Shown here piece by piece: positions 20,769-37,513 of a DNA stretch of 43,130 nt (its first letter is position 1; every line of letters begins with the position of its first letter). A model generated the notes under the pieces. That model made no database searches, was not told where the DNA came from, and was given only the letters and a program-made list of their open reading frames with translations. This stretch comes from Gammaproteobacteria bacterium (GTDB lineage: Bacteria; Pseudomonadota; Gammaproteobacteria; Xanthomonadales; SZUA-5): the NCBI GenBank assembly GCA_030430155.1, contig JAUIFV010000018.1:1-43130 (forward strand), given 5' to 3'. The translations under genes were made by a program, and so were the position numbers.

Positions 20769-22403
20769 ATGAAAGCTTGCCTATTGCCGCTTTGCCTCTC
20801 TCTTTTGGCTTACTCATCAATAGTTCCCGCCGCTGGCAACATGCGCCTGGGGATCAACGGGTCCGGTCCTATCGAGCTGGACAACGCGCAAACCCAGCAG
20901 CTGTTCACGCCGACCTTGACCACCCAGAAGCGCCTGCGGATGAAGCTGGCCCAGCCGGTGCTGTGCACCTCCTTCTCTACCGCGACCACCGATGTGGCGG
21001 TGGAACTGGTCAATCCTCAGGAGTTTTTCGCCAATCCGCTGGTCTACCCGCCGATCCGCGGCCTGTCGAGCATCAGCTATTTCGTCAACGACAATCAGAA
21101 CCGCGGGCTACTGCAGATTTCTTCCACCGGCAGTGCGCCAGCAGGAAATGTGGCTTGCTGCATCCTGACTCCGGCGGCCAATGCACTGTGCCTGCAGGGC
21201 AACGCCACCCAGTCGGCCATCATCGATAGCGAACTGTTCGAGGACGGCTTTGAGAATTTCATCCCGCTGACCGGTCCGGATCTGATCGTCACCGTGCAGG
21301 CCCCGGCCACCGTGGGCCAGGGAGCGACGCTCAACTACGACATCGTGATTCGCAACGAGGGGGTCTCCACTGCGACCAGCGCGCGGATCCGCGAATACTT
21401 CCCCACGGTTGCTGCCAACCCGCCGGCGTTGACCACCGGCTCGTGGACCTGCAGCGCCACGCCGGGCAGCAGCTGCGCTACCGGGGCCGGCACCGGCATC
21501 ATCAGCGCCGCGCCCAACGAACGGCTGTTCAACGTTGCCGTTGGCGGTACGGTCACCTTCAGCGTTACTCGCAGCGTGCTTAATTCGCCGCCGCCGATGA
21601 TCGGCTCCACATTGCGCCTGAATGCCGCGGTATTCACCCGGCCGCAGGAGAACGAATCGCGCATCGGCAACAATCAGGCTGACGCCACCGTCACCATCCA
21701 GAACAACACTGCACCGACCATCAGCGACGTGGCCAACCAGACCATCGATGAAGATGGCGCTACCGGTGCTCTGGCCTTTACCGTGGGCGATGCGGAGACT
21801 GCGCCGGGCTCACTGGGGGTGAGTGCGGTCAGCAACAATCAGGCGCTGATCCCGAACGGCAATCTGGTCCTCGGCGGCAGCGGTGCCAATCGCACGATCA
21901 CCGCCACGCCAGTGCAGGACGGCAACGGTACGGCGACCATCACCGTCACGGTCAGCGACGGCAGTGCGACCAGCAACGACACCTTCACCGTCACCGTCGA
22001 TCCGATCAACGACGCGCCCAGCTTCACCGCTGGCGGTGATCTGAGCTTCACCACCGGGGCGGCTGCCGGTGCGCGCAATCCGGACTGGGCCAGCGATATC
22101 TCGCAATGTCCGCCGGCCCGACCCACCTGCGAGGGCAACGAGCCGGACATCGGGCTGAACTTCATGGTTCAGATCGACAGCGACACGGGCATCCTCAGCG
22201 GACCAGTCAGCGTCGGCACCGATGGCAAGATCCTTTTCGCGCTGGCCGACTCCGGCGGTGGCGTGGCCTCGGACGGCCTGGCCTGCATCGTGGTCACCCT
22301 GAACGATGGCGGCGACGGCAATCCGCCCAACGCCAACAGCCAGACCCAGGGGCCGTTCCGTATCGAGGTCGGTAGTCCGGGCGGCAGCTGTTTGCCGCGT
22401 TAG
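20769..22403 (+). CDS. Secreted protein with DGFE motif, DUF11-like and cadherin/Ig-like domains
   Basis: Protein of 544 residues. The signal peptide MKACLLPLCLSLLAYSSIVPAAG is cleaved around residue 22. Residues 25-155 form a cysteine-containing domain I do not recognise. It ends with SELFEDGFE at 154-162, the same tag that closes two other secreted proteins here. A DUF11/CARDB-like domain (about 170-305; DLIVTVQAPATVGQGATLNY) and a cadherin/Ig-like segment (TISDVANQTIDEDGATGALAF, about 317-418) follow, then a module with NDAPSFTAGGDLSFTTGAAA. There is no membrane anchor or known sorting signal at the C-terminus (GSCLPR). It is likely extracellular or surface-associated. It lies between hrpA and relA with no obvious partner. 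Confidence 0.8.
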   Translation: MKACLLPLCLSLLAYSSIVPAAGNMRLGINGSGPIELDNAQTQQLFTPTLTTQKRLRMKLAQPVLCTSFSTATTDVAVELVNPQEFFANPLVYPPIRGLSSISYFVNDNQNRGLLQISSTGSAPAGNVACCILTPAANALCLQGNATQSAIIDSELFEDGFENFIPLTGPDLIVTVQAPATVGQGATLNYDIVIRNEGVSTATSARIREYFPTVAANPPALTTGSWTCSATPGSSCATGAGTGIISAAPNERLFNVAVGGTVTFSVTRSVLNSPPPMIGSTLRLNAAVFTRPQENESRIGNNQADATVTIQNNTAPTISDVANQTIDEDGATGALAFTVGDAETAPGSLGVSAVSNNQALIPNGNLVLGGSGANRTITATPVQDGNGTATITVTVSDGSATSNDTFTVTVDPINDAPSFTAGGDLSFTTGAAAGARNPDWASDISQCPPARPTCEGNEPDIGLNFMVQIDSDTGILSGPVSVGTDGKILFALADSGGGVASDGLACIVVTLNDGGDGNPPNANSQTQGPFRIEVGSPGGSCLPR

Positions 22404-24822: not shown

Positions 24823-26910
24823 ATGGTCGATATTCCTGGCTACAAAATCATTCGTCAGCTGGGCCGTGGCGGAATGGCGACGGTGTATCTGGCCGAGCAG
24901 GCGCTGGTTGAGCGCGAGGTGGCGCTGAAAGTGATGGCGCCGCAGCTGACCGTCGATCCCAGCTTTGGTGAGCGCTTTCTGCGCGAGGCGCGGATTGCCG
25001 CCAAGCTGCGTCATCCGCATATCGTCTCGATCATCGAAGTCGGCGTGCACGGCGACTACCACTATGCGGCGATGGAGTACCTGGCCGGGCCGGTGCAGAC
25101 GCGCGAAAGCGATACGCTAAGCCTGAAGGCGACGCTGCGAGTGGTGCGTGAGATCGCCACCGCGCTGGACTATGCGCACAGCAAGGGTGTGGTGCATCGC
25201 GACGTCAAGCCGGACAACATCCTGCTGCGTGAGGACGGTAGCGCGGTGCTCGGCGATTTCGGCATTGCCCGCGCCGCCGACGCAACCGGTGCGGTGACCC
25301 GTACCGGCGCGGTGGTCGGCACGCCGCTGTTCATGAGTCCGGAGCAGCTGCGCGGCAAGCAGGTCGACGGGCGCTCGGATTTGTACAGCCTGGGTGTAGT
25401 CGCCTTTCAGCTCCTCAGCGGCCGTCCACCCTATGTTGCCGAGGACGCGCTGGCGCTGGGGATCATGCACATGACCTCGCCGATTCCGGCGCTGCCGGCC
25501 AGTTTTCAGCCGGCGCAGGCGCTGGTTCACAAGCTGTTGGCCAAAGACCCCGCCGATCGCTACCAGACCGGTGCCGCGGTGGCTGCCGCAGTGACCGCGC
25601 TGGAAGCGCAGTTGGGCGGTAACGACGCGGCAGCATTGCCTGCGCCCGCGCCTGCGCCTGAAGCGCCGCCGCCCGAGGATATCGACCTGGGCAGCCCACG
25701 TGGTGGACGCGCCGAACCAACCATAGGCGAATTCGCAGAAGCGGTCGCTGACCGTTGGCGCGTGACCCCACGCCCGGCCAGTCGGCTGCGTCGCCGCCGC
25801 CGTTGGGGCCTGCCGCTGTTGCTGGTGCTGGTGCTGCTGGCCGCCGTCGGCTGGTGGCAGCGAGAGCTGTGGCTGCCGCAGGCGCAGCAGTGGCTGAACG
25901 AGCAGCTCGGCGCAACCGATCAGCGCCTAGAGCAATTCTCCGAGCGGCGCGCCAAAGGCGAGCTGATACGCCCCGGCGGAGACGATGCGCTGGCCGACCT
26001 CAGCGCGCTGCTGGCCGAGCAGCCGGACAACGCCCAAGCCTTGGGCGCGCTCGCCGCCGCTTGGCCGGAACTGGTCGCCGAGCTCAAGCGGCTGGACAAC
26101 AGCGACCCGCCGGCAGCGCAACAGCTGCGCGCGCGGCTGCTGGCGCTGCGCCCGGACGATGCGGCCCTGCAGCCGCCAGCGGCGCCGACCAGCAACGATG
26201 CAGCACCCATCGCCAACAGCACCGTCGGCAGCGGTGCCCCGACGCCGACTTCATCGCTGTCAGAGGATCAGGTCCAGACGCTGCTGGATGAACAGCTGGA
26301 GGCCGCTCGAGCCGCCGAGCGGCAGCGCCAGTGGTATGGCGAGGACGGTGCCCTGGAGGCCTATCGCGCGGCGCTGGCGCTGCGCCCGGAGAGTGACGCC
26401 GCGCGAGTTGGGCTGCTGCGGCTGATCGATCGGATACTGATCGACGCGCGCGAGGCCGTGCAGCGTCGCCAGCAGACCGAACCCGCACAGGCCGCGGTGG
26501 AGGCCTTTGACGGCATCGAGGTGGCCAAGGCCGCGCGCGATGAGCTGATGCGACTGCTGCAGCTGGCCGAACGTCGCGGTGCCGGCGCCGACCGGGTGCA
26601 GCGCATCAACGCCGCCCTGGCCGCCGCCGATCAGCTGCTGCGCCGCGGCACGCCGGCCGATCAAGCGCTGATCGATCTGGCCACGCAGCTAGCCGATGCA
26701 GCCCAGCTGGACCGTCGCGATCCGCGTTTGCGCGAAACCATCGACAAAGTCGCCGCGCTGCTGCTGGTGCGCGCCGGCGAAAAACTGGAAGCCAACGACG
26801 CTGGCGGTGCCGAAGCGCTGCTCAAGGCGGCCGGCACGCTGACCCCGGACAGCGCCCAGCTGGAGGATCTGCAGATTCGGGTGGAACGAGCGGGGGCGGC
26901 TGGCGGTTAG
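24823..26910 (+). CDS. Membrane Ser/Thr protein kinase (Hanks type) with extracytoplasmic helical repeats
   Basis: Protein of 695 residues. Kinase domain at about 7-270: glycine loop GRGGMATVY (14-22), Lys36 (VALKVM), catalytic loop HRDVKPDN (125-132, D127), DFG at 145-147, SPE in place of APE at 172-174, and an activation loop rich in Thr (AVTRTGAVVGTP). A Pro/Ala/Glu linker and an Arg-rich stretch (RLRRRRRW) precede one transmembrane helix at about 328-345. The outer 350 residues are Ala/Gln/Glu-rich helices resembling TPR or coiled coil. There is no PASTA domain. The target is unknown. Its place after relA hints at, but does not show, a stress-signalling link. No cognate PP2C phosphatase or FHA protein is present in the window. 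Confidence 0.9.
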   Translation: MVDIPGYKIIRQLGRGGMATVYLAEQALVEREVALKVMAPQLTVDPSFGERFLREARIAAKLRHPHIVSIIEVGVHGDYHYAAMEYLAGPVQTRESDTLSLKATLRVVREIATALDYAHSKGVVHRDVKPDNILLREDGSAVLGDFGIARAADATGAVTRTGAVVGTPLFMSPEQLRGKQVDGRSDLYSLGVVAFQLLSGRPPYVAEDALALGIMHMTSPIPALPASFQPAQALVHKLLAKDPADRYQTGAAVAAAVTALEAQLGGNDAAALPAPAPAPEAPPPEDIDLGSPRGGRAEPTIGEFAEAVADRWRVTPRPASRLRRRRRWGLPLLLVLVLLAAVGWWQRELWLPQAQQWLNEQLGATDQRLEQFSERRAKGELIRPGGDDALADLSALLAEQPDNAQALGALAAAWPELVAELKRLDNSDPPAAQQLRARLLALRPDDAALQPPAAPTSNDAAPIANSTVGSGAPTPTSSLSEDQVQTLLDEQLEAARAAERQRQWYGEDGALEAYRAALALRPESDAARVGLLRLIDRILIDAREAVQRRQQTEPAQAAVEAFDGIEVAKAARDELMRLLQLAERRGAGADRVQRINAALAAADQLLRRGTPADQALIDLATQLADAAQLDRRDPRLRETIDKVAALLLVRAGEKLEANDAGGAEALLKAAGTLTPDSAQLEDLQIRVERAGAAGG

Positions 26911-27296: not shown

Positions 27297-30275
27297 ATGA
27301 CCGCTATTCGCTCGCTGATTGCATTCCTGCTGCTCGCACCTGCATCTCTGTGGGCCGCAACCATCGCCCTCGCCCCTGGGGAAGTGGCGGTGGCTGCCAA
27401 CGGTCAGTGCTCGCTGATCGAGGCCATCCACAATGCCAATGCTGACGCCCAGGTGGACAACGGCGATTGCGGCGCCGGCAGCGGCGCCGATACGCTGCTG
27501 CTGCCCGTCGGTGGTTTTGACGACTACGTGCTGCAGCAGCCCGATGCGGTCAATGCCGACAACGGCCTGCCGGTGATCAGCTCCGCGATCACCATCGACG
27601 CCCCGACCCCTGGCGTCATCCGTCGCGCTACCGCCGCCTGCAATCGCAACGGCACGGCGGACCCGGGAGAGTTTCGGCTGATCGAGGTGGTCAGCGGTGG
27701 GTCACTGACGCTGCGCAATCTGTCGCTGCGCAGCGGCTGCGCCGACGGCAGCGGCCCGCGCAATGACGGTGGTGCGGTACGGGTCAACAGCGGCGCAACG
27801 TTGATTGCCCATCGCGTGGATTTCGCCAGCAATCGCGCGCGGGACAAGAGCGGCGCGGTCGATGTGGATTCGGGCGCGACGGTGACCATTACCGCGAGCA
27901 AGTTTCAAAACAATCAGGCCGACGGCGGGGCCGGCGCCATTGGCAACGGTGATTCCATCGTGACCATCGATTCCTCGACCTTTTCCAACAACAGCGCTGG
28001 TGGTGAGGGCGGCGGCGCTATCGGCAATTTCGGGACACTGCATCTGCGCAACAGCACGGTGTCCGGCAATGACACGACCGGCAACGGCGGCGCCATCGGC
28101 AATGGCAGCGGTGGCACATCGGTGATCGAGTTCAGCACCCTGGTCGACAACAGCGCCAGCGGCGCGCTGGGCGGCGGTGGCATCGGCAATGCCGGCACGC
28201 TGCAGATCAAGAACTCGATCGTTGCCGACAACGGCGCCGATGACTGTGTCAATCTGGGTGCCTTCGAGGCCTTTGGTGAGAATTTCGACAGCAGCGGCAG
28301 CTGCGCGGCAATCGACCCGGACTTCGTCCAAGCCACACTGGCTGCACTCAACCTGGGCAATCTGTCCAGCAACAGCGGATTCACTTTCAGCCACCTGCCC
28401 GGCGCCGGTAGCGTGGTCATCGATGCGGTCAGCGACTGCACCGCAGTGGACGGTCTGACCGCCTATGAGCGCGACCAGCGCGATCTGCCCCGGCCCTGGG
28501 ATGGCGACGGTCAGAACGGCGCGCAGTGCGATGTCGGCTCGGTGGAGGTGATTCCGCTGGGCAGCGAGCAGATCGTGGTGGACGGAGTGAGCTGCACCCT
28601 GGGCGATGCCATCGAGGCGGCCAACAGCAGCCAAACGGTGGCCGGCTGCGCGAACGCCCTGTTCGGCAGCGACACGCTGATCCTCAATGCCCCGGTGCTG
28701 CTGACCGGCGCAGACACCCTGCGCTCGACCGAACGCGAAGGCGCCTTTGCCGCGCTGCCCGACATCACCAGTCAGATCAGTATCGAGCCGGGCACGCACC
28801 GCCGTATCGAGCGTGATCCTGGCCTGGACTGCGTCAGCGCCGACGGCCCCAATGAGTTCCGGCTGTTCAACGTGGTGGCCGAAGGCGAACTCCGGCTGGA
28901 AGACGTCGAACTGGCCAACGGCTGCGCCAATCGCGGCGGCGCGGTGCTGGTGGCTGACGCCGCTCTGCTGGCCCTGCAGCGCGACGATACAGGCGTCAGC
29001 ATGATCGGCAACACCGCGCGCTCGACCACCTTGAGCGCACAAGGCGGCGCGATCTGGATCGATTCCAGCGCCCAATCGGAGATCAATGGGGCGCGCTTTG
29101 AGGGCAACCGGGCCATCGGCGCGCGTGCTCAGGGCGGCGCGTTGTGGGAGAACGGTGCGCTCGTTGAGTTGCTCGGCAGCCGCTTTGACGGCAATCAGGC
29201 GCTGGCGATGGGCGCGACCATCGCGGAGAGGGAAGCACAAGGCGGCGCAGCCCATCTGGTCCGGTCAAGCATCCGTAGCGGCGTCTTCAGCGACAATCTT
29301 GCCCAAGGGGGCGATGCTGCAGGCAGCATCGGAGGAAGCGCCAGGGGTGGTGCGCTGTACGTAGACAACCTTGATGAAAGCGCGCCGCAAATTGCCGATA
29401 CGTTGTTCGAAGGCAATTCGGCCCGTGGCGGGCAGGGTAATACCGGGGGCAGGGCCGAGGGCGGCGCCGCGTTCCTGTCCAGATCCGGGATCACGATCGT
29501 TCGCGCCACCTTCCAGTACAACCTGGCCGAAGCTGGTCTGGGTATGGCAAACGCGGAGGCTGCCATCGGTGGTGCGCTCAGGACGACGGCTTTGGTCGAA
29601 CTTGACCACGTCACCATTTCCCACAACGAGGCTCGTGGCGGCAGTTCAGTACCGATCGGCGGGAACGCCGAGGGCGGCGGTCTCTCCCTTGACACCGGCT
29701 CAGTGCCATTGATGCTGCGCCATTCCACCGTTGCCGCCAACCGGGCAATCGCCGGCACTGGCGGCGTGCCCGGAGTCGCATTAGGCGGCGGCCTGTCGAT
29801 TAGGGACAAGGGCACAACGCAGATTTTCTCCTCAGTGCTGGAGGGCAATGTGGCGGTCGTTGGTGCAGCGATCTCGCCCTCGGAATGCTTCGCTGATAGC
29901 GATGGCACATTCGACAGCCTGGGCTTCAACACCCTGGCTGAAGCCAGCCCGGACTGCGCCTTCGACGAGCCCAGCGACCAGACCGGCGTCGGTCCTTCGC
30001 TGATCCCGCTGGGCGACTACGGCTGCGTGGAGACTCTGCCCGACGGTGCCTGCCTGCCCACCCATCCGGTGCGCGTCGGTCGACCGGCCCAGGATGCCGC
30101 CAGCTGCGCCTCCGGGGCCACCGAAGACGCCCGCGGTTCCTCGCGCCCCTGGGACGACCCCAACGTGGTCAATGCCGACGACGGCTGCGATGCCGGCGCC
30201 TATGAATCGCGCGATGTCGACAACGATGGCTTCGACGACGATTCCATCCGAATCCACGACGACGGCTTCGAGTAG
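27297..30275 (+). CDS. Secreted beta-helix repeat protein with two CSLREA-type modules and C-terminal DGFE
   Basis: Protein of 992 residues. A signal peptide (ALIAFLLLAPASLWA-like, residues 1-20) is followed by two copies of one architecture. Module 1 begins CSLIEAIHNANAD (residue 37) and module 2 begins CTLGDAIEAANSS (about 430); both resemble the CSLREA motif of proteobacterial surface proteins. Each is followed by many Gly/Asn-rich right-handed beta-helix turns (GGAIGNGG, FSNNSAGGEGGGAIGN, GNRAIGARAQGGALW) and a choice-of-anchor-like close (CDVGSVEV; CDAGAYES). An acidic tail DVDNDGFDDDSIRIHDDGFE ends the protein. Such helices form adhesins or carbohydrate-acting surface proteins; no catalytic site is recognisable. 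It lies upstream of a two-component system in the same direction. Confidence 0.85.
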   Translation: MTAIRSLIAFLLLAPASLWAATIALAPGEVAVAANGQCSLIEAIHNANADAQVDNGDCGAGSGADTLLLPVGGFDDYVLQQPDAVNADNGLPVISSAITIDAPTPGVIRRATAACNRNGTADPGEFRLIEVVSGGSLTLRNLSLRSGCADGSGPRNDGGAVRVNSGATLIAHRVDFASNRARDKSGAVDVDSGATVTITASKFQNNQADGGAGAIGNGDSIVTIDSSTFSNNSAGGEGGGAIGNFGTLHLRNSTVSGNDTTGNGGAIGNGSGGTSVIEFSTLVDNSASGALGGGGIGNAGTLQIKNSIVADNGADDCVNLGAFEAFGENFDSSGSCAAIDPDFVQATLAALNLGNLSSNSGFTFSHLPGAGSVVIDAVSDCTAVDGLTAYERDQRDLPRPWDGDGQNGAQCDVGSVEVIPLGSEQIVVDGVSCTLGDAIEAANSSQTVAGCANALFGSDTLILNAPVLLTGADTLRSTEREGAFAALPDITSQISIEPGTHRRIERDPGLDCVSADGPNEFRLFNVVAEGELRLEDVELANGCANRGGAVLVADAALLALQRDDTGVSMIGNTARSTTLSAQGGAIWIDSSAQSEINGARFEGNRAIGARAQGGALWENGALVELLGSRFDGNQALAMGATIAEREAQGGAAHLVRSSIRSGVFSDNLAQGGDAAGSIGGSARGGALYVDNLDESAPQIADTLFEGNSARGGQGNTGGRAEGGAAFLSRSGITIVRATFQYNLAEAGLGMANAEAAIGGALRTTALVELDHVTISHNEARGGSSVPIGGNAEGGGLSLDTGSVPLMLRHSTVAANRAIAGTGGVPGVALGGGLSIRDKGTTQIFSSVLEGNVAVVGAAISPSECFADSDGTFDSLGFNTLAEASPDCAFDEPSDQTGVGPSLIPLGDYGCVETLPDGACLPTHPVRVGRPAQDAASCASGATEDARGSSRPWDDPNVVNADDGCDAGAYESRDVDNDGFDDDSIRIHDDGFE

Positions 30276-30531
30276 CAATGGGCTGCCGCTAGCAGACCTG
30301 ATCCAGCATGCCGATGGCTGCGAAGACGATGGCGGGCAGCGCCCGCCCGCTCGATCCAGCTAGGGCTGGCGGCTTGCGCCGACCAGGGCACAAACCTATG
30401 CTCGAGCGCTGCGGCGGTCAGTCATGCTAGGCGATTATTTGCGCCGGCTGGGCTGGTTGCGGGGAAGGGTGAAATCGCCGCCTCGCCTGCCGCCGTCGAC
30501 GAATCAGCCGCGGCAGCGGGTTGGGGGGCGG

Positions 30532-31221
30532 ATGCGGGAACAGCCATCGGGCGCTGCGACGCGGCTGCTGTTGATCGAGGATGATCAGCGCTTCGGTCGG
30601 GCGCTGCTGGCCGCGCTCAACGCTCAGGGCTTTGAGGTGGAGTGGAGTCAGGACGGCCTGCGCGGGCTGGATCTGGCGCTGGGCCACGCCTGGGGTGCGG
30701 TGATCCTGGATCTGATGATCCCCACGCTCAATGGGCCCACGGTTTTGCGTCGGCTGCGCGAGGAATCGCAGGTCCCAGTGCTGATACTGACCGCCAGGCA
30801 TTCGCTGCAGGATCGGGTCGATCAGCTCGATCACGGCGCGGATGACTATCTGACCAAACCGGTGGAGCTGCCCGAACTGGTGGCGCGGCTGCGCGCGCTG
30901 ATCCGGCGTGCTGCGGGTTCGGCGAATCAATCCTTGACGCTGGGCGATCTGGAGATTGACCTCTACCAGCGACTGGTGCATCGCCAGGGCCAGCGCATCG
31001 AGCTGACGTCCACCGAGTTCCGCCTGCTCGAGCATCTGATCCGCAACCGCGGGCGCACGCTGGCCACTGCCGAGATCGCCAAAGTCGTGTCGGGCAGCGG
31101 TGATTTGCTTACCGCGGCGACGGTGCGCGCCCACGTTCGCAACCTGCGAGCCAAGCTGGGCGAGTCGACCGTGCAAACGCGGCGCGGCTACGGCTACTTG
31201 ATCCCGGATCAGGCGCAATGA
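30532..31221 (+). CDS. OmpR-family response regulator
   Basis: Protein of 229 residues with start MREQPSGAATRLLLIEDDQ. The frame is open 36 codons further upstream, but that stretch is unlike a receiver. Receiver domain: acidic pair E16/D17-D18, phosphoacceptor D60 (VILDLMIP), T87 (LTAR) and K109 (LTKP). The C-terminal winged helix (about 125-225) includes IELTSTEFRLLEHLIRNRGR and VRAHVRNLRAKLG, typical of OmpR/PhoB. Its stop overlaps the histidine-kinase start (ATGA), so the two are translationally coupled. It is flanked by two secreted repeat proteins, the most likely regulatory targets by position. GGGGGG precedes the start. Confidence 0.92.
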   Translation: MREQPSGAATRLLLIEDDQRFGRALLAALNAQGFEVEWSQDGLRGLDLALGHAWGAVILDLMIPTLNGPTVLRRLREESQVPVLILTARHSLQDRVDQLDHGADDYLTKPVELPELVARLRALIRRAAGSANQSLTLGDLEIDLYQRLVHRQGQRIELTSTEFRLLEHLIRNRGRTLATAEIAKVVSGSGDLLTAATVRAHVRNLRAKLGESTVQTRRGYGYLIPDQAQ

Positions 31222-32489
31222 GCAGCGCCGGCGATTCGGCGGCGGTGTCCACCGGTATTCCGGTATCGGTGCTGCGCATGGCCTCGGGAAATACCGTGCA
31301 GGTGCTGGCCGCTTTTGCGCTGCTTGCTGTGCTGTTTCGAGCGGCAGGAGCCTGCTACTCGTACGTGCTCGGCCCGCCGTTGATGGTCTGGTTGCAGGTG
31401 CTGAGTGCTGTGCTCTATCTCGGGCTGGCGCTAGGGCCCTGCCGGCGTGGTCAGGCCAATCTCTTTCTCGCCGTCATTGGTCCCGAATTCGTCGTCTGGG
31501 GTGTTGCGATGGTCCTGAGTTACGGACTGGGCAGCTTGTTCCATCTGCACACCCTGTTCGTCACCGCTGGGATCATCCTGCTCTTGCACGAGCAACCGGT
31601 GCGTCAACGCCTGGTGCTGTTTGTGCTGCCGATCGTGCTACCGATCCCCTTCATGCTGGTGCTGCGTACAAGCGTGCCGGCGGTTTTGCTCGACCACGAG
31701 CATGAGCAGTTTGTCGCCATCTTCAATCAAGGCGTGGGTGCGGCCTACTTCATGATCATCTGCGGTCTGGCGACGCTGGACCACGCCCGCGCCCGTCAGC
31801 TGGCCGAATCCCGCGCCGAGATGCAAACCCGGCTCATCGAAGACTTGAGCCACGAACTGCGCACCCCCATTGCCACCGTGCTGACCTCGGCGCAGGGCGC
31901 GCAGCTCGGCGGTCAAGCCAGCGCCGAGGTCAGCGAGTGCCTGCAGTGGATCGAGGAATCGGCCCGGGCGGCCGGACGGTTGACGCAACGGATGCTCGAT
32001 CTGGCCACCCTGGATCGCGGCTGGCGGCCGGATTCAAAGCCTGTGGCGCTGGCCGACGGGGTCGCCGAGATCGTCGAGCGCATTCGGCCGCTGGCCGGCG
32101 CACACGGTGCGAGTCTGCGCGCCAGGCTGGATCCGGCATTGCACAGGGAGGTCGACCTGGCCTCGCTGGAGATCGTGCTGCAAAACCTGATTGGCAACGC
32201 GCTGGCACACTCGCCCCGGGGCAGTGTGGTGACCGTCCAGCTGCGCGTGGGCGGCAACGGCCTGCCGCGAATCGCGGTGGCTGATCAAGGCGAGGGGATT
32301 GCCGCCGAGGATCTGCCGCGGGTCTTTGATCGGCTGTGGCGCGCCGACCGCGCCCGTACTCGTGACGAGGGCCGTTTTGGGCTGGGCCTGTCCATCGCCC
32401 AACGCCATGCTCACTTGATGGATGCGCGCATCGAGGTTCAGTCCAAGCTGGGCAAGGGCTCGATCTTCACCGTGGTTTTCGTGGTTTGA
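31218..32489 (+). CDS. Membrane sensor histidine kinase
   Basis: Protein of 423 residues. The N-terminal part (about 25-187) has six hydrophobic helices and no large periplasmic loop, so the signal is probably sensed within or near the membrane. HisKA domain: H-box EDLSHELRTPIATV with phosphoacceptor H212. The HATPase domain has N-box LQNLIGNALAHS, G1 ADQGEGIAAEDL, F-box VFDRLWRAD and G2 FGLGLSIAQRH. It overlaps the response-regulator gene by 4 bp, forming a two-gene cassette. The stimulus cannot be inferred. A direct repeat lies immediately after the stop. Confidence 0.93.
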   Translation: MSSAGDSAAVSTGIPVSVLRMASGNTVQVLAAFALLAVLFRAAGACYSYVLGPPLMVWLQVLSAVLYLGLALGPCRRGQANLFLAVIGPEFVVWGVAMVLSYGLGSLFHLHTLFVTAGIILLLHEQPVRQRLVLFVLPIVLPIPFMLVLRTSVPAVLLDHEHEQFVAIFNQGVGAAYFMIICGLATLDHARARQLAESRAEMQTRLIEDLSHELRTPIATVLTSAQGAQLGGQASAEVSECLQWIEESARAAGRLTQRMLDLATLDRGWRPDSKPVALADGVAEIVERIRPLAGAHGASLRARLDPALHREVDLASLEIVLQNLIGNALAHSPRGSVVTVQLRVGGNGLPRIAVADQGEGIAAEDLPRVFDRLWRADRARTRDEGRFGLGLSIAQRHAHLMDARIEVQSKLGKGSIFTVVFVV

Positions 32490-32529
32490 GTTCAACTCAA
32501 CGCAAACTCAACAAAACGGCGCCTAGGGT
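32488..32529 (+). promoter_or_regulatory. Candidate OmpR/PhoB-type operator and promoter upstream of the repeat protein gene
   Basis: AACTCAAC occurs twice, at 32494-32501 and 32505-32512, exactly 11 bp apart (one helical turn). The second copy ends 11 bp before the -10-like TAGGGT (32524-32529). This is the layout of a PhoB-box class II promoter. The left copy also sits in the palindrome GAGTT-C-AACTC (32488-32498), which overlaps the kinase stop codon. The regulator assignment is inference from adjacency. Confidence 0.5.
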
Positions 32530-32591
32530 GGAGCAACGCTACCGCGACTGAACAACCGCGCGGTGGCGACTCAATCCACCTGGAGCCACTC

Positions 32592-34805
32592 ATGCGCATA
32601 GCACACTGTCTACCGCCATCATCTGTACTCGGTCGCGTGTTCCGCCGCCCACTTTCGGTTGGCGCCTTGCTGTTCGCATCTACAGCCGCGAGCGCGTCCG
32701 GCAATGGCCCCTTCGGTCTCCCCGACATGCCCATCGTAGACGGCCAGGTTCTGGCGATGGCTGCAGACGGCGACCTGCTCTACGTCGGGGGTATCTTCGA
32801 CATGGTCGGCCCGGCCACCGGCCCGGCGGTGGAGATCGACCTGGTCAGCGGCGCCATTTCGCTGCAGTCGCTGGGCATCGCTGCGGCAGAAGAAAACGAC
32901 GTCCGAACAGTCGTCTCCGATGGCAGCGGCGGATGGTACATCGGCGGAAGATTCACCGAGGTCGGCGGCCTGCCGCGGCGGGGCTTGGCCCGAGTGCTCG
33001 CCGACGGCAGCGTGGACCCGGCCTTCGACGCCCAGCTCGATGACGACGTGGAACTGCTGCTGCTGCACGCCGGCAACCTCTATGTGATGGGCGATTTCTC
33101 ACAGGTGGGCGCCAGCGCGCGCAGTACCGCCGCCGCGGTCGACCCGACCACCGGCGCGGTGACGATGTGGGCGCCCGAGCCCAATCGAGGCATCGCCGCC
33201 ATTGCCGTCGGGCCAACCGGACTGCTGGTCGGTGGGCGCTTCGACAACATCGGCGGTGTGCAGCGCAGCCGCTTCGCCGAATTGGACCCGATCAGCGGCG
33301 CCGCCACCGCCCTGCAGGTGGACATCAATGGCGGAAGCAATCGATTGGTAACAGCCTTGGCCGTTGTCGGCAACACCGCCTACCTGGGCGGCTCCTTCAC
33401 CGGCATTGGCGGACAGCCGCGGGATCGCCTGGCGGCGGTCGACCTGAGCACCGGACTGCCCACGGCCTGGAATCCGGGCGCCGACGCTAATCCGAACGTC
33501 CTGCTCGCCGCCGACGATGTGCTTTGGGTGGGCGGCGTCTTTTCCATGCTCGACGGGACAGCCCGACAGGGTGTGGGCGCCTTCGACCTGACCAGCGGCA
33601 ACCTCAGCACCTGGGATCCTGCCCTGGGCGCCGATGGATATGTCGAGGCGATCGCCCTTGGCGGGAAGGGCACGGTGATACTGGGTGGGGAATTTGACAG
33701 CGTGGGTGGTGTGGATCGTCTCAATCTGGTCGAAGTCGACGATTCCAGCGGGATGGCCGTGGGCTTTGGCCAGGGCACAGGTCAGCCGGTGCGAGCGCTG
33801 GCCCGTGACGGCGCCCGACTGATGGTCGGCGGTGATTTCGCCACGGTTGGAGGCCTGATCCGGCGCAATCTGGCCGCATATACCGTTTCCACCGGCGAGC
33901 CCACCGCCTGGGCGCCGAGCGTATCGGCACAGAACCCACTCATCCTCGACGTGGCGGTGTCCGGGAATACGCTGTACGTCGGCGGGGGATTCAGCGAGAT
34001 CAACGGCGCTGCGCGTGAGAATCTTGCCGCGATCAACGCGGACGACGGGACCCTGCTGCCCTGGAATCCCGCCCCCAACGACTTCGTCTATGCGCTGGAG
34101 ATCGTCGATGATTCGGTCTATGTGGGCGGCGAGTTCGGGCAGATCGGCGGGCAGTCGCGGTCCTTTCTGGCCGAGCTCGACGCCACCAGTGGTGCAGCCA
34201 GCGCCTGGGCGCCCAGCCTGTCCGAGACGGTTTACGCGCTCGCGGTCAGCGACGACACCGCCTACGTCGGACTGCGACTCGGCGACTCGATTCGTGCCAA
34301 CAGCGCATTCGCCTTCGACCTAGTGAGTGCGATGCCCACGGCCTGGGATCCCAACCTCATCAATCAGTCTGTCGACAGTCTGGCCATCGACGGCGCGGAG
34401 GTCCTGGTCGGCGGGCTGTTTGCGCAACTCGGTGGCCAGCCGCGCGAGAACCTGGGCGCGGTCGATGCCACGGTGGGATTAGCCACCGGATGGGACCCCG
34501 GAGCTGGCGGCCGGGTCGGCGACTTGCTGGTCGATGGCCGAACGGTGTACGTGGCCGGCAGCATCAACGGGGCAGGCACCGGGGTAGCTGCGCGGGGTGG
34601 TCAGGGTTCGGTCGGAGTCGCGGCGGTGGACCGGATCAGCGGTGCGACCGTCTGGCTGCCGGAGATCAGCGGCAATGGGTCAGCCGTGGCGCTGTCGGGC
34701 GAATGGGTAGCCGTCGGCGGCAACTTCCGCAGCATGGGCCGCGGTGGCCTGCTGCTCTTGCGTGGGCCGGAATTCCTTTTCGCTGACGGCTTTGAGGCGC
34801 CGTAG
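32592..34805 (+). CDS. Secreted beta-propeller-like repeat protein with C-terminal DGFE motif
   Basis: Protein of 737 residues. A signal peptide (RRPLSVGALLFASTAASASG) is followed by about 14 units of roughly 50 residues. Each has a YVGGxF-type strand (LYVGGIF, WYIGGRF, LLVGGRF, AYLGGSF, LWVGGVF, LYVGGGF, VYVGGEF), then VGGxxRxxLAAxD, then TGxxTAWDP. The pattern resembles delta-60/beta-propeller repeats. The protein ends in FLFADGFEAP; no membrane anchor is seen. It is probably extracellular; substrate or ligand is unknown. GGAG precedes the ATG. It follows the histidine kinase by 102 bp, with the direct-repeat operator candidate in that gap. Confidence 0.85.
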   Translation: MRIAHCLPPSSVLGRVFRRPLSVGALLFASTAASASGNGPFGLPDMPIVDGQVLAMAADGDLLYVGGIFDMVGPATGPAVEIDLVSGAISLQSLGIAAAEENDVRTVVSDGSGGWYIGGRFTEVGGLPRRGLARVLADGSVDPAFDAQLDDDVELLLLHAGNLYVMGDFSQVGASARSTAAAVDPTTGAVTMWAPEPNRGIAAIAVGPTGLLVGGRFDNIGGVQRSRFAELDPISGAATALQVDINGGSNRLVTALAVVGNTAYLGGSFTGIGGQPRDRLAAVDLSTGLPTAWNPGADANPNVLLAADDVLWVGGVFSMLDGTARQGVGAFDLTSGNLSTWDPALGADGYVEAIALGGKGTVILGGEFDSVGGVDRLNLVEVDDSSGMAVGFGQGTGQPVRALARDGARLMVGGDFATVGGLIRRNLAAYTVSTGEPTAWAPSVSAQNPLILDVAVSGNTLYVGGGFSEINGAARENLAAINADDGTLLPWNPAPNDFVYALEIVDDSVYVGGEFGQIGGQSRSFLAELDATSGAASAWAPSLSETVYALAVSDDTAYVGLRLGDSIRANSAFAFDLVSAMPTAWDPNLINQSVDSLAIDGAEVLVGGLFAQLGGQPRENLGAVDATVGLATGWDPGAGGRVGDLLVDGRTVYVAGSINGAGTGVAARGGQGSVGVAAVDRISGATVWLPEISGNGSAVALSGEWVAVGGNFRSMGRGGLLLLRGPEFLFADGFEAP

Positions 34806-34913: not shown

Positions 34914-34990
34914 TGGTGGCTATGGGTGGACTCGAACCACCGACCCCAGCATTATGAGTGCTGTGCTCTAACCGGCTGAGCTACATAGCC
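34914..34990 (-). tRNA. tRNA-Met (anticodon CAT), elongator type
   Basis: Read on the minus strand, the 77-nt sequence begins GGCTATGTAGCTCAGCCGGT and ends CCCATAGCCACCA. The acceptor stem GGCTATG/CATAGCC is perfect, the anticodon stem is CAGCA/TGCTG with loop CTCATAA, and the T-loop is TTCGAGT. CCA is encoded. The body matches elongator tRNA-Met rather than initiator, since the first pair is G-C; a CAT-reading tRNA-Ile2 is a less likely alternative. No other tRNA is adjacent. Confidence 0.95.
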
Positions 34991-35270: not shown

Positions 35271-35648
35271 ATGTTTGATCAAGTCAGCAATCAGTTCCTT
35301 TCCTTCGGCAAGCAGGCCGCTGAGACCCTTCTGAAAGCCAACGCCATCGCCAGCGAAGGCGTCGAGAAGATGATCGACGTGCAGCTGAAGACCATGGAAG
35401 ACCGCTTCAACGCCACTTCCGAGCTGGTCAGCATGGCCTCCGAGGCGCGCGACGCCGAAGCCTTCAAGACCCTGCTGCCCAAGAGCGTGTCGCTGATGAA
35501 GGATTCCGGTGAGAAGCTGTACTCCACCAGCCAGGAAATCTTCGGCATCGTGGTCAAGACCAACGAAGCCCTGGGCGATCTGGCCAAGACCAACTTCGAA
35601 TCCGCCAACGGCGCGGTGAAGAAGGCGACTGCGAAAGCGGCCAAGTAA
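35271..35648 (+). CDS. Phasin family protein
   Basis: Protein of 125 residues, helical and without cysteine. MFDQVSNQFLSFGKQAAETLLKAN and the middle helix IDVQLKTMEDRFNATSELVSM match the phasin_2 pattern. It ends in an alanine/lysine-rich tail (KKATAKAAK) typical of small phasins. Phasins coat polyhydroxyalkanoate granules. No PHA synthase is in the window, so a granule role depends on genes elsewhere; small phasins also occur as general stress proteins. GGGAG lies 9-14 bp before the ATG. Confidence 0.85.
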   Translation: MFDQVSNQFLSFGKQAAETLLKANAIASEGVEKMIDVQLKTMEDRFNATSELVSMASEARDAEAFKTLLPKSVSLMKDSGEKLYSTSQEIFGIVVKTNEALGDLAKTNFESANGAVKKATAKAAK

Positions 35649-35880: not shown

Positions 35881-35914
35881 GCGCCGCTGACGCACCTTAG
35901 GGATGGGAGGACCG

Positions 35915-37513
35915 GTGGCAGAAACGCGCGAGGCGAAAGTTCCGGACATTGGCGATTTCGACGAGGTGCCGGTCATCGAGGTGCTGGTCGCGGTCGGCGA
36001 CGAGGTCAAGGCCGATCAGGGCTTGATCACCCTGGAGTCGGACAAGGCGACCATGGAAGTGCCGGCGCCTTTCGCTGGCGTGATTCGCGACATCATGGTC
36101 AAGGTTGGCGACAATCTGTCCGAAGGTGCGGTGGTTGCGCTGATCGAAGCGGCCGAACAGGGTAGCGAGGGGCAGTCCAGTGACGCGGCCCCGGCGAGCG
36201 AATCTGCCAGTACTGATGTGTCCACGGCCGAGGCCGGCGAGCTGATCGAAGCCAAAGTGCCGGACATCGGCGACTACCAGGGCGTGCCGGTGATCGAGGT
36301 GCTGGTCGCGGTGGGCGATACGGTCAAGGCTGATCAGGGGCTGGTCACCCTGGAGTCGGACAAGGCGACCATGGAAGTGCCTTCGCCCGCTGACGGTGTG
36401 GTGGAAAGCATCGCGGTCAAGGTCGGCGACGAGCTTGCTGAGGGCAGTCTGGTGGCCACATTGCGCGGTGGAAGTAGCGCCAGCGCGTCCAAGACCGCAG
36501 CGCCTGCCCCGGCGCAGGAAAGGGCAGAGTCGACCAAGCAGTCCCCACCGCCCGCACCCCCCACCCCTCAGCGACCGCCAGCGCCGCTGCCGCCCGCACC
36601 CAACAGCGGCGGCAAGCCGGCCCACGCTTCCCCCGGCATCCGTCGCTATGCCCGCGAACTGGGTGTGGACCTCAGTCAGGTCAGCGGCACCGGACGCAAG
36701 GGCAGAATCACCCGCGAAGACGTCAACGCCTTCGTCAAGGGCGCGCTGAGTGCGCCCAGGTCGTCGACTGCCGGCAGCGGTGGCGGACTGGATCTGCTGC
36801 CCTGGCCGAAAGTGGATTTTTCCAAGTTCGGCGAGGTGGAATCGCAGCCGCTGTCCCGCATCAAGAAGATCTCGGGCGCCAATCTGGCCCGCAACTGGGC
36901 GATGATTCCGCACGTCACCCAGCAGGACGAGGCCGACATCACCGAGATGGAGGCCTTCCGCAAACAGATCGGCAGCGAACAGAAGGACGTCAAGGTCACT
37001 CCGCTGGTGTTCCTGATCAAGGCGGTGGTGCGCGCGCTGCAGGCCTTTCCCAGCTTCAACGCCTCGCTGGACGGCGACAACCTGGTGCTGAAGAAGTATT
37101 TTCACGTCGGTATCGCCGTCGACACGCCCGATGGGCTGGTGGTGCCGGTGATCCGCGACTGCGATCGCAAGAGCCTGCTGGATCTGGCTCGCGAGCTGGC
37201 CGAGGTCAGCGGCCGCGCCCGCGACAAGAAGCTCAAAGGCGAGGACATGCAGGGCGGCTGTTTTTCGATTTCCTCCCTTGGTGGCATCGGCGGCACCGGG
37301 TTCACGCCGATCATCAACGCCCCCGAAGTGGCCATCCTCGGCGTGTCCCGATCGGCAATGAAGCCGGTTTGGCAGGGCGACAGCTTCCAGCCGCGGCTGA
37401 TGCTGCCGCTGTCGCTCAGCTACGACCACCGGGTGATCGATGGCGCCGCTGCGGCGCGCTTTACCGCTTATCTGGCGCAGCAGCTGGGGGATATACGGCG
37501 GCTGTTGCTTTAG
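35915..37513 (+). CDS. aceF: Pyruvate dehydrogenase E2, dihydrolipoamide acetyltransferase
   Basis: Protein of 532 residues from a GTG start (MAETREAKVPDIGDFD), preferred over the ATG 12 bp upstream because GGGAGG sits just before the GTG and the product then aligns with the Lpd N-terminus MAEQVQVRVPDIGDFD. Two lipoyl domains (lipoyl lysines K44 and K150, in ESDKATMEVP), then a peripheral-subunit-binding domain (ASPGIRRYARELGVDLSQV, about 245-280), then the acetyltransferase core with the catalytic SYDHRVIDG (H505, D509). The linkers are Ala/Pro-rich. E2 transfers acetyl groups to CoA. aceE is not in the window. A secreted-protein gene separates it from lpd. Confidence 0.95.
   Translation: MAETREAKVPDIGDFDEVPVIEVLVAVGDEVKADQGLITLESDKATMEVPAPFAGVIRDIMVKVGDNLSEGAVVALIEAAEQGSEGQSSDAAPASESASTDVSTAEAGELIEAKVPDIGDYQGVPVIEVLVAVGDTVKADQGLVTLESDKATMEVPSPADGVVESIAVKVGDELAEGSLVATLRGGSSASASKTAAPAPAQERAESTKQSPPPAPPTPQRPPAPLPPAPNSGGKPAHASPGIRRYARELGVDLSQVSGTGRKGRITREDVNAFVKGALSAPRSSTAGSGGGLDLLPWPKVDFSKFGEVESQPLSRIKKISGANLARNWAMIPHVTQQDEADITEMEAFRKQIGSEQKDVKVTPLVFLIKAVVRALQAFPSFNASLDGDNLVLKKYFHVGIAVDTPDGLVVPVIRDCDRKSLLDLARELAEVSGRARDKKLKGEDMQGGCFSISSLGGIGGTGFTPIINAPEVAILGVSRSAMKPVWQGDSFQPRLMLPLSLSYDHRVIDGAAAARFTAYLAQQLGDIRRLLL

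Follow-up and report, generated by a model that had tools for sequence, protein, structure and literature searches.

Does a two-component system control the two secreted proteins encoded on either side of it, and does the C-terminal word DGFE that these proteins share bear on that question? Both points are raised by four consecutive genes in a contig of 43,130 nucleotides from a gammaproteobacterium (JAUIFV010000018.1, assembly GCA_030430155.1; the whole contig is hereafter the window), which a first-pass annotation had read as a kinase and a regulator governing two extracellular proteins.

Gene content and conservation of the cassette

The four open reading frames lie on the forward strand in the order and single direction that the first-pass annotation gave, and encode a secreted beta-helix-type protein of 992 aa (P1, 27297..30275), an OmpR/PhoB-family response regulator (RR, 30532..31221, in a frame that opens at 30424), a histidine kinase (HK, 31218..32489) and a secreted DUF5122 beta-propeller protein of 737 aa (P4, 32592..34805). 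The RR stop and the HK start share 4 bp. When the RR frame is compared with that of the sister species described below, positions 30424-30531 are 68% identical and the part from MREQ (30532) onward is 89% identical; the conserved ATG at 30532 appears more likely to be the true start than 30424.

The regulator, kinase and beta-propeller calls are confirmed by domain matches. RR joins a receiver domain to a C-terminal winged-helix domain, as members of the OmpR/PhoB family do (Response_reg 80.1 bits, Trans_reg_C 58.8 bits, both over the Pfam gathering score), and HK has the HisKA and HATPase_c domains of a sensor kinase, both again over the gathering score, together with a membrane input region of six hydrophobic segments (predicted TM helices) between residues 22 and 184. 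P4 matches DUF5122 (PF17164) with 62.4 bits against a gathering score of 27. For P1 a Pfam search gave no match and the CSLREA domain (TIGR04214) reached 15.0 bits, under its cut-off of 25, while the NCBIfam model choice_anch_Q (NF041518) scored 60.6 bits against a cut-off of 25; the choice-of-anchor group to which this domain belongs is named for its variable C-terminal anchors. P1 is built of two repeat halves; a paralogue from the sister species, 48% identical, matches the second of them. Signal peptides had been proposed for both flanking products, and both are positive in a crude signal-peptide test. AlphaFold gave models too poor for fold searches, with a pLDDT of 39 for P1 by itself and of 53 for P4 modelled from two sequences, and a sequence search of the PDB gave weak Kelch matches only for P4 and none for P1.

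Just 3' of P4 lies a tRNA-Met(CAT) gene on the reverse strand (34914-34990), followed by a phasin-like gene (35271-35648) and a gene for a lipoyl-domain acyltransferase resembling pyruvate dehydrogenase E2 (35903-37513); judged from sequence, the latter two make this an ordinary chromosomal setting.

Among 398 genomes of the order, an orthologue of HK was found only in the sister species Lysobacterales bacterium HKST-UBA245 (87% identity), and a scan of the contigs of the genome collection with HK returned one true orthologue and otherwise only distant kinases. The expectation that the four genes co-occur in related genomes is borne out in that their linkage is kept in the sole other genome with HK, but the arrangement is that of two congeneric species among 398, and conservation is shallow because only these two genomes hold the RR-HK pair. 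In the sister species the locus reads Ser/Thr kinase - P1 - X - RR - HK - P4, where X is a further tagged protein, 2287 aa long, whose domains are of the FG-GAP, GEVED and cadherin-like kinds; it was looked for in the genome holding the window and is absent from it. The Hanks-type Ser/Thr kinase gene (24823..26910, + strand), whose product has a C-terminal repeat region, stands directly 5' of P1 in both genomes and could belong to the same unit.

The DGFE tag in the genome and across the order

The first-pass annotation placed DGFE at the C-terminus of both flanking products. This is exact for P1, which ends in IHDDGFE-stop (tag at 30261..30272, + strand), whereas P4 ends in LFADGFEAP-stop (tag at 34785..34796, + strand), two residues beyond DGFE. 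The shared word is no chance match, yet it is unspecific to the cassette: the pattern GAYGGNTTYGAR matches the genome 109 times and its reversed control 15 times, and DGFE-stop occurs 20 times against 0 in the control. Given these 109 matches and the order-wide spread described below, DGFE does not support a link between the flanking genes and RR-HK, and we have dropped it as an argument because it is genome-wide.

What the tag marks is instead a large class of proteins. In the form [LIV][FHY]x[DN]GFE it stands at the C-terminus of about 50 mostly secreted proteins of the genome (the logo reads [LIV]-[FHLY]-x, often A-[DN]-G-F-E), and in 49 of the 100 places that were read it falls within the last 24 residues of the frame. 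Most tagged frames with a closed N-terminus begin, by the crude test, with a signal-peptide-like segment. In a survey of 0.8 Mb of the genome, with contigs taken by size, the tag was carried by 11 of 158 proteins that the test calls secreted and by 1 of the 403 remaining proteins (Fisher p = 6e-6), a contrast weakened because the test passes some cytoplasmic proteins. The tag ends exactly at E in 23 of 53 tagged proteins, and a C-terminal hydrophobic segment is present in one of the 53.

Across the order, DGFE-stop is common in families f1, f4 and f5 and in the greater part of f9, reaching 25 copies per genome, and is absent or near control level in families f2, f8, f10 and f12; among 398 genomes sampled from the phylum, those outside the order stay at control level, with at most 3 per genome. 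Most of the tagged frames in 20 stretches of other families again encode signal-peptide proteins, whose tails include LFADGFE, IFIDGFE and LFSDGFE. Furthermore, eight P4 homologues, the most distant of them 27% identical, retain a tail of the form [LI]F-x-x-x-F-[EQ], and the linker that precedes it varies in length. The carriers belong to unrelated families, including propellers, FG-GAP and DUF11 proteins, subtilases, M36 and M28 proteases and amidohydrolases.

Several proteins carry the motif in unusual positions or number. The window encodes a 544-aa protein with DUF11 and Big_9 domains (20769-22403) in which LFEDGFE is internal, at about residues 156-162, and is followed by a DUF11 region, possibly as a fusion or an internal tag. 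A secreted protein of another genome (L186, genome G041) has two tandem tags at its end, DLIFEDGFDPFIDLIFIDGFE. In L069:4170 (ADRLHVDGFE) and L082 (AIFSDGFEG) the motif comes shortly after signal-peptide-like starts, and both frames are incomplete because they lie at contig or stretch edges.

From its position and its carriers, we infer that the DGFE tail is a sorting or secretion tag. The alignment of one M36 protease with the tag (L059) to a model for T9SS-dependent M36 proteases covers positions 232-780 of 869, after which the protein ends in DADTIHIDGFES, so that its tag stands at the place of the sorting domain, which the name of the model suggests to be its last ~89 positions. No T9SS CTD model is among the families listed for the tag carriers, and a search of the literature for DGFE or FADGFE as a protein motif found no bacterial sorting paper.

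A transmembrane-anchored sorting signal of the PEP, GlyGly or MYXO type was considered and is ruled out by the C-terminal hydrophobic segment being found in just 1 of 53 carriers. A second explanation is that the tail is a structural end motif, that is, a closing strand or linker remnant of extracellular beta-rich proteins. Many carriers are indeed beta-rich repeat proteins, internal copies occur in a few secreted frames (that at 20769-22403 in the window and L050), and one copy stands just past a signal-peptide-like start in the cut-off frame L069. However, the carriers span many unrelated folds, proteases included, nearly half of them stop exactly at E, the tail is retained behind linkers of differing length even among the most divergent propellers, and its distribution is restricted by lineage and not by fold. 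We regard a purely structural role as the less probable alternative and retain the reading of the tail as a sorting or secretion tag.

A common upstream box and the proposed local regulation

With the tag set aside, the regulatory link is supported by gene order, conservation, a box upstream of the flanking genes and the specificity of that box. The upstream regions of P1 and P4 have in common CTMAACGC-N3-CTMAAC-N10-CTAG, about 90 bp before the start codon. The predicted RR operator/promoter of P1 (27209..27239, + strand) reads CTCAACG-CCTT-CTAAACA...CTAG and lies 88 bp 5' of its start codon, and that of P4 (32496..32526, + strand) reads CTCAACG-CAAA-CTCAACA...CTAG and lies 96 bp 5' of its own; in both, the layout is CTCAACG-N4-CTMAACAA with CTAG 10 bp past the second CTMAAC. 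The box consists of two 7-nt direct repeats with a 4-nt gap and an 11-bp period, which is the 7-4-7 geometry of the Pho box bound by PhoB-type response regulators (PMC4415409).

The pattern CTCAACRNNNNCTMAACAA has 2 matches in the window against 0.07 expected, although the motif was picked after inspection and the P1 and P4 sites match by construction because the pattern was written from both. When one mismatch is allowed, the genome of 5 Mb has 3 matches, namely the P1 and P4 sites and one other. Without mismatches, the box occurs only 5' of P1 and P4 in this genome and of their orthologues in the sister species, the reversed control being at background, and CTMAACGCNNNCTMAACN10CTAG with up to one mismatch found no further match in nine genomes of the family. 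The pattern written from P1 and P4 alone also turned up a third copy in the sister species, CTAAACGCATTCTCAAC...CTAG, 87 bp 5' of the tagged gene X, with 3 mismatches and the register kept. Taken alone, the pairwise similarity of the P1 and P4 upstream regions is modestly unusual, being equalled by 1 of 400 shuffles and 2 of 221 upstream regions; the three-way similarity of P1, P4 and X is stronger, with 19 of 38 columns identical against a random mean of 12.6, a value reached by 1 of 1500 random upstream triples. Between the two genomes the HK-P4 intergenic region is 95% identical and the flanking coding sequence 86-88%; upstream of P1, the last 100 bp are 86% identical and the preceding 100 bp 24%. 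A scan for consensus promoters and terminators returned no promoter-like site and terminator-like sites at background only, and in it the flanking promoters of P1 and P4 showed no good -35 element.

The RR-HK operon differs from the genes on its flanks in having no box in its upstream region, so that no autoregulation is visible. A sigma-70-like promoter, TTGCGC-N17-TATGCT (30374..30402, + strand), was seen there by eye; it falls under the threshold of the promoter scan and is conserved in the sister species.

We therefore turn to the claim that RR and HK control both secreted genes. It gains from the predicted box common to P1, P4 and a third tagged gene, and must be narrowed in that this is not a widespread system. 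Our preferred reading, which we hold to be somewhat better than an even bet on these sequence comparisons, is a local two-component regulon in which RR-HK controls the flanking tagged secreted genes through the box as its predicted operator. The RR-HK operon would be transcribed from its own basal promoter, and the membrane-embedded HK would sense an envelope or membrane signal and phosphorylate RR in a presumed phosphorelay. RR may then bind as a tandem dimer to the two CTMAACR heptamers 11 bp apart, which would stand in for the -35 element about 10 bp 5' of CTAG and switch on P1 and P4, plus the FG-GAP/cadherin protein X in the sister species, if the sign of regulation is as we suppose. The products of P1 and P4 would cross the inner membrane by means of their signal peptides, and the lineage-wide tag would most likely route them to secretion or surface attachment through machinery presumably common to dozens of proteins. 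Other OmpR-family regulators of the genome could also be binders of the box. If so organised, the cassette is a compact and testable regulon, with one regulator, two or three promoters and one motif.

A gene set related to P1 and P4 elsewhere in the sister genome bears on this proposal. On its contig C693 (L107, L200), a P4-like, a P1-like and another P4-like gene lie beside an ECF sigma factor (TIGR02999, 191.6 bits against a cut-off of 126) and a Ser/Thr kinase, and are not accompanied by the RR-HK of the cassette. Paralogues of the flanking genes are thus adjacent to a different regulator, which tells against a general linkage of such genes to this kinase and regulator. The cassette box is absent from the upstream regions of the three paralogues, which have a common motif of their own, TGAGACG...GTCGCAG (22 of 38 columns; 0 of 856 random triples). 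This suggests that P1/P4-type gene sets may be wired to different regulators.

The paralogues also enter into the main alternative to the local regulon, namely that the neighbourhood is due to chance, RR-HK controlling distant genes while the promoters of P1 and P4 are of one type that another regulator or the housekeeping polymerase reads. That the tag is uninformative on RR-HK, that the paralogues sit together without it and that the arrangement occurs in two related genomes only are all compatible with this explanation. However, the box is confined to RR-HK-linked genes in both genomes, the inserted third gene X among them, whereas a generic promoter would be expected to recur elsewhere, and the paralogues lacking RR-HK have a different common promoter beside a sigma factor; we consider a chance neighbourhood unlikely, at perhaps one chance in four. 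Less likely still is that the box silences P1 and P4, or that at the cell surface their products tune the kinase signal: the genes lie close together and a box falls within the HK-P4 intergenic region, secreted products beside a kinase could conceivably feed back, and the sequence evidence leaves the sign of regulation free, but the 7-4-7 repeat ends about 10 bp 5' of CTAG, resembling the position of an activating Pho box, and a good -35 element is wanting at either flanking promoter.

Taking the local regulon together with the tag, we arrive at a broader proposal, to which we give about an even chance: DGFE would be an undescribed short sorting or secretion signal of several Lysobacterales/Xanthomonadales families, read by a machine that needs no membrane-anchor helix, and the secreted propeller and beta-helix gene sets bearing it would answer to different regulators, namely a two-component system in the window and, in the paralogous cluster of the sister species, an ECF sigma factor with a Ser/Thr kinase.

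Comparison with known systems

The cassette resembles PhoB/OmpR regulons in pairing a receiver and winged-helix regulator with a HisKA kinase, and in a predicted operator of 7-bp repeats with a 4-bp gap (PMC4415409). It differs from them in the sequence of the repeat, CTMAACR, in an apparent regulon made up of adjacent secreted genes only, and in a kinase whose six-TM input region has no recognised sensor domain. For the paralogous cluster, the closest likeness is the ECF43 sigma/Hanks-type kinase module EcfK-PknS of Xanthomonas (PMC13147305). As in that module, a TIGR02999 sigma factor and a Ser/Thr kinase occur together, here preceding the P4-like, P1-like and P4-like genes with their own shared promoter motif; it would, however, govern the paralogous cluster and not the cassette in the window, and its sigma factor is at most a candidate member of ECF43 proper.

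Of wider interest than the regulon is the tag, a seven-residue tail on dozens of unrelated and mostly secreted proteins in several families of one order, which points to a route of secretion or surface attachment absent from the literature searched. Like the signals of the GlyGly-CTERM/rhombosortase, PEP-CTERM/exosortase, MYXO-CTERM/myxosortase and LPXTG/sortase systems, it is a lineage-restricted C-terminal signature on unrelated signal-peptide proteins (PMC3237569, PMC11980579), with many such carriers per genome by the crude signal-peptide test. Those known tags depend on a TM helix together with basic residues (PMC3237569, PMC11980579), whereas the DGFE tag has neither the helix (1 of 53) nor a basic cluster at the extreme C-terminus, most tails ending at E, often the end of the protein, or a few non-basic residues later. 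With the T9SS C-terminal sorting domain it has in common the place that it holds in the M36 protease L059, but it is a tail of 7 residues and not a domain of roughly 80.
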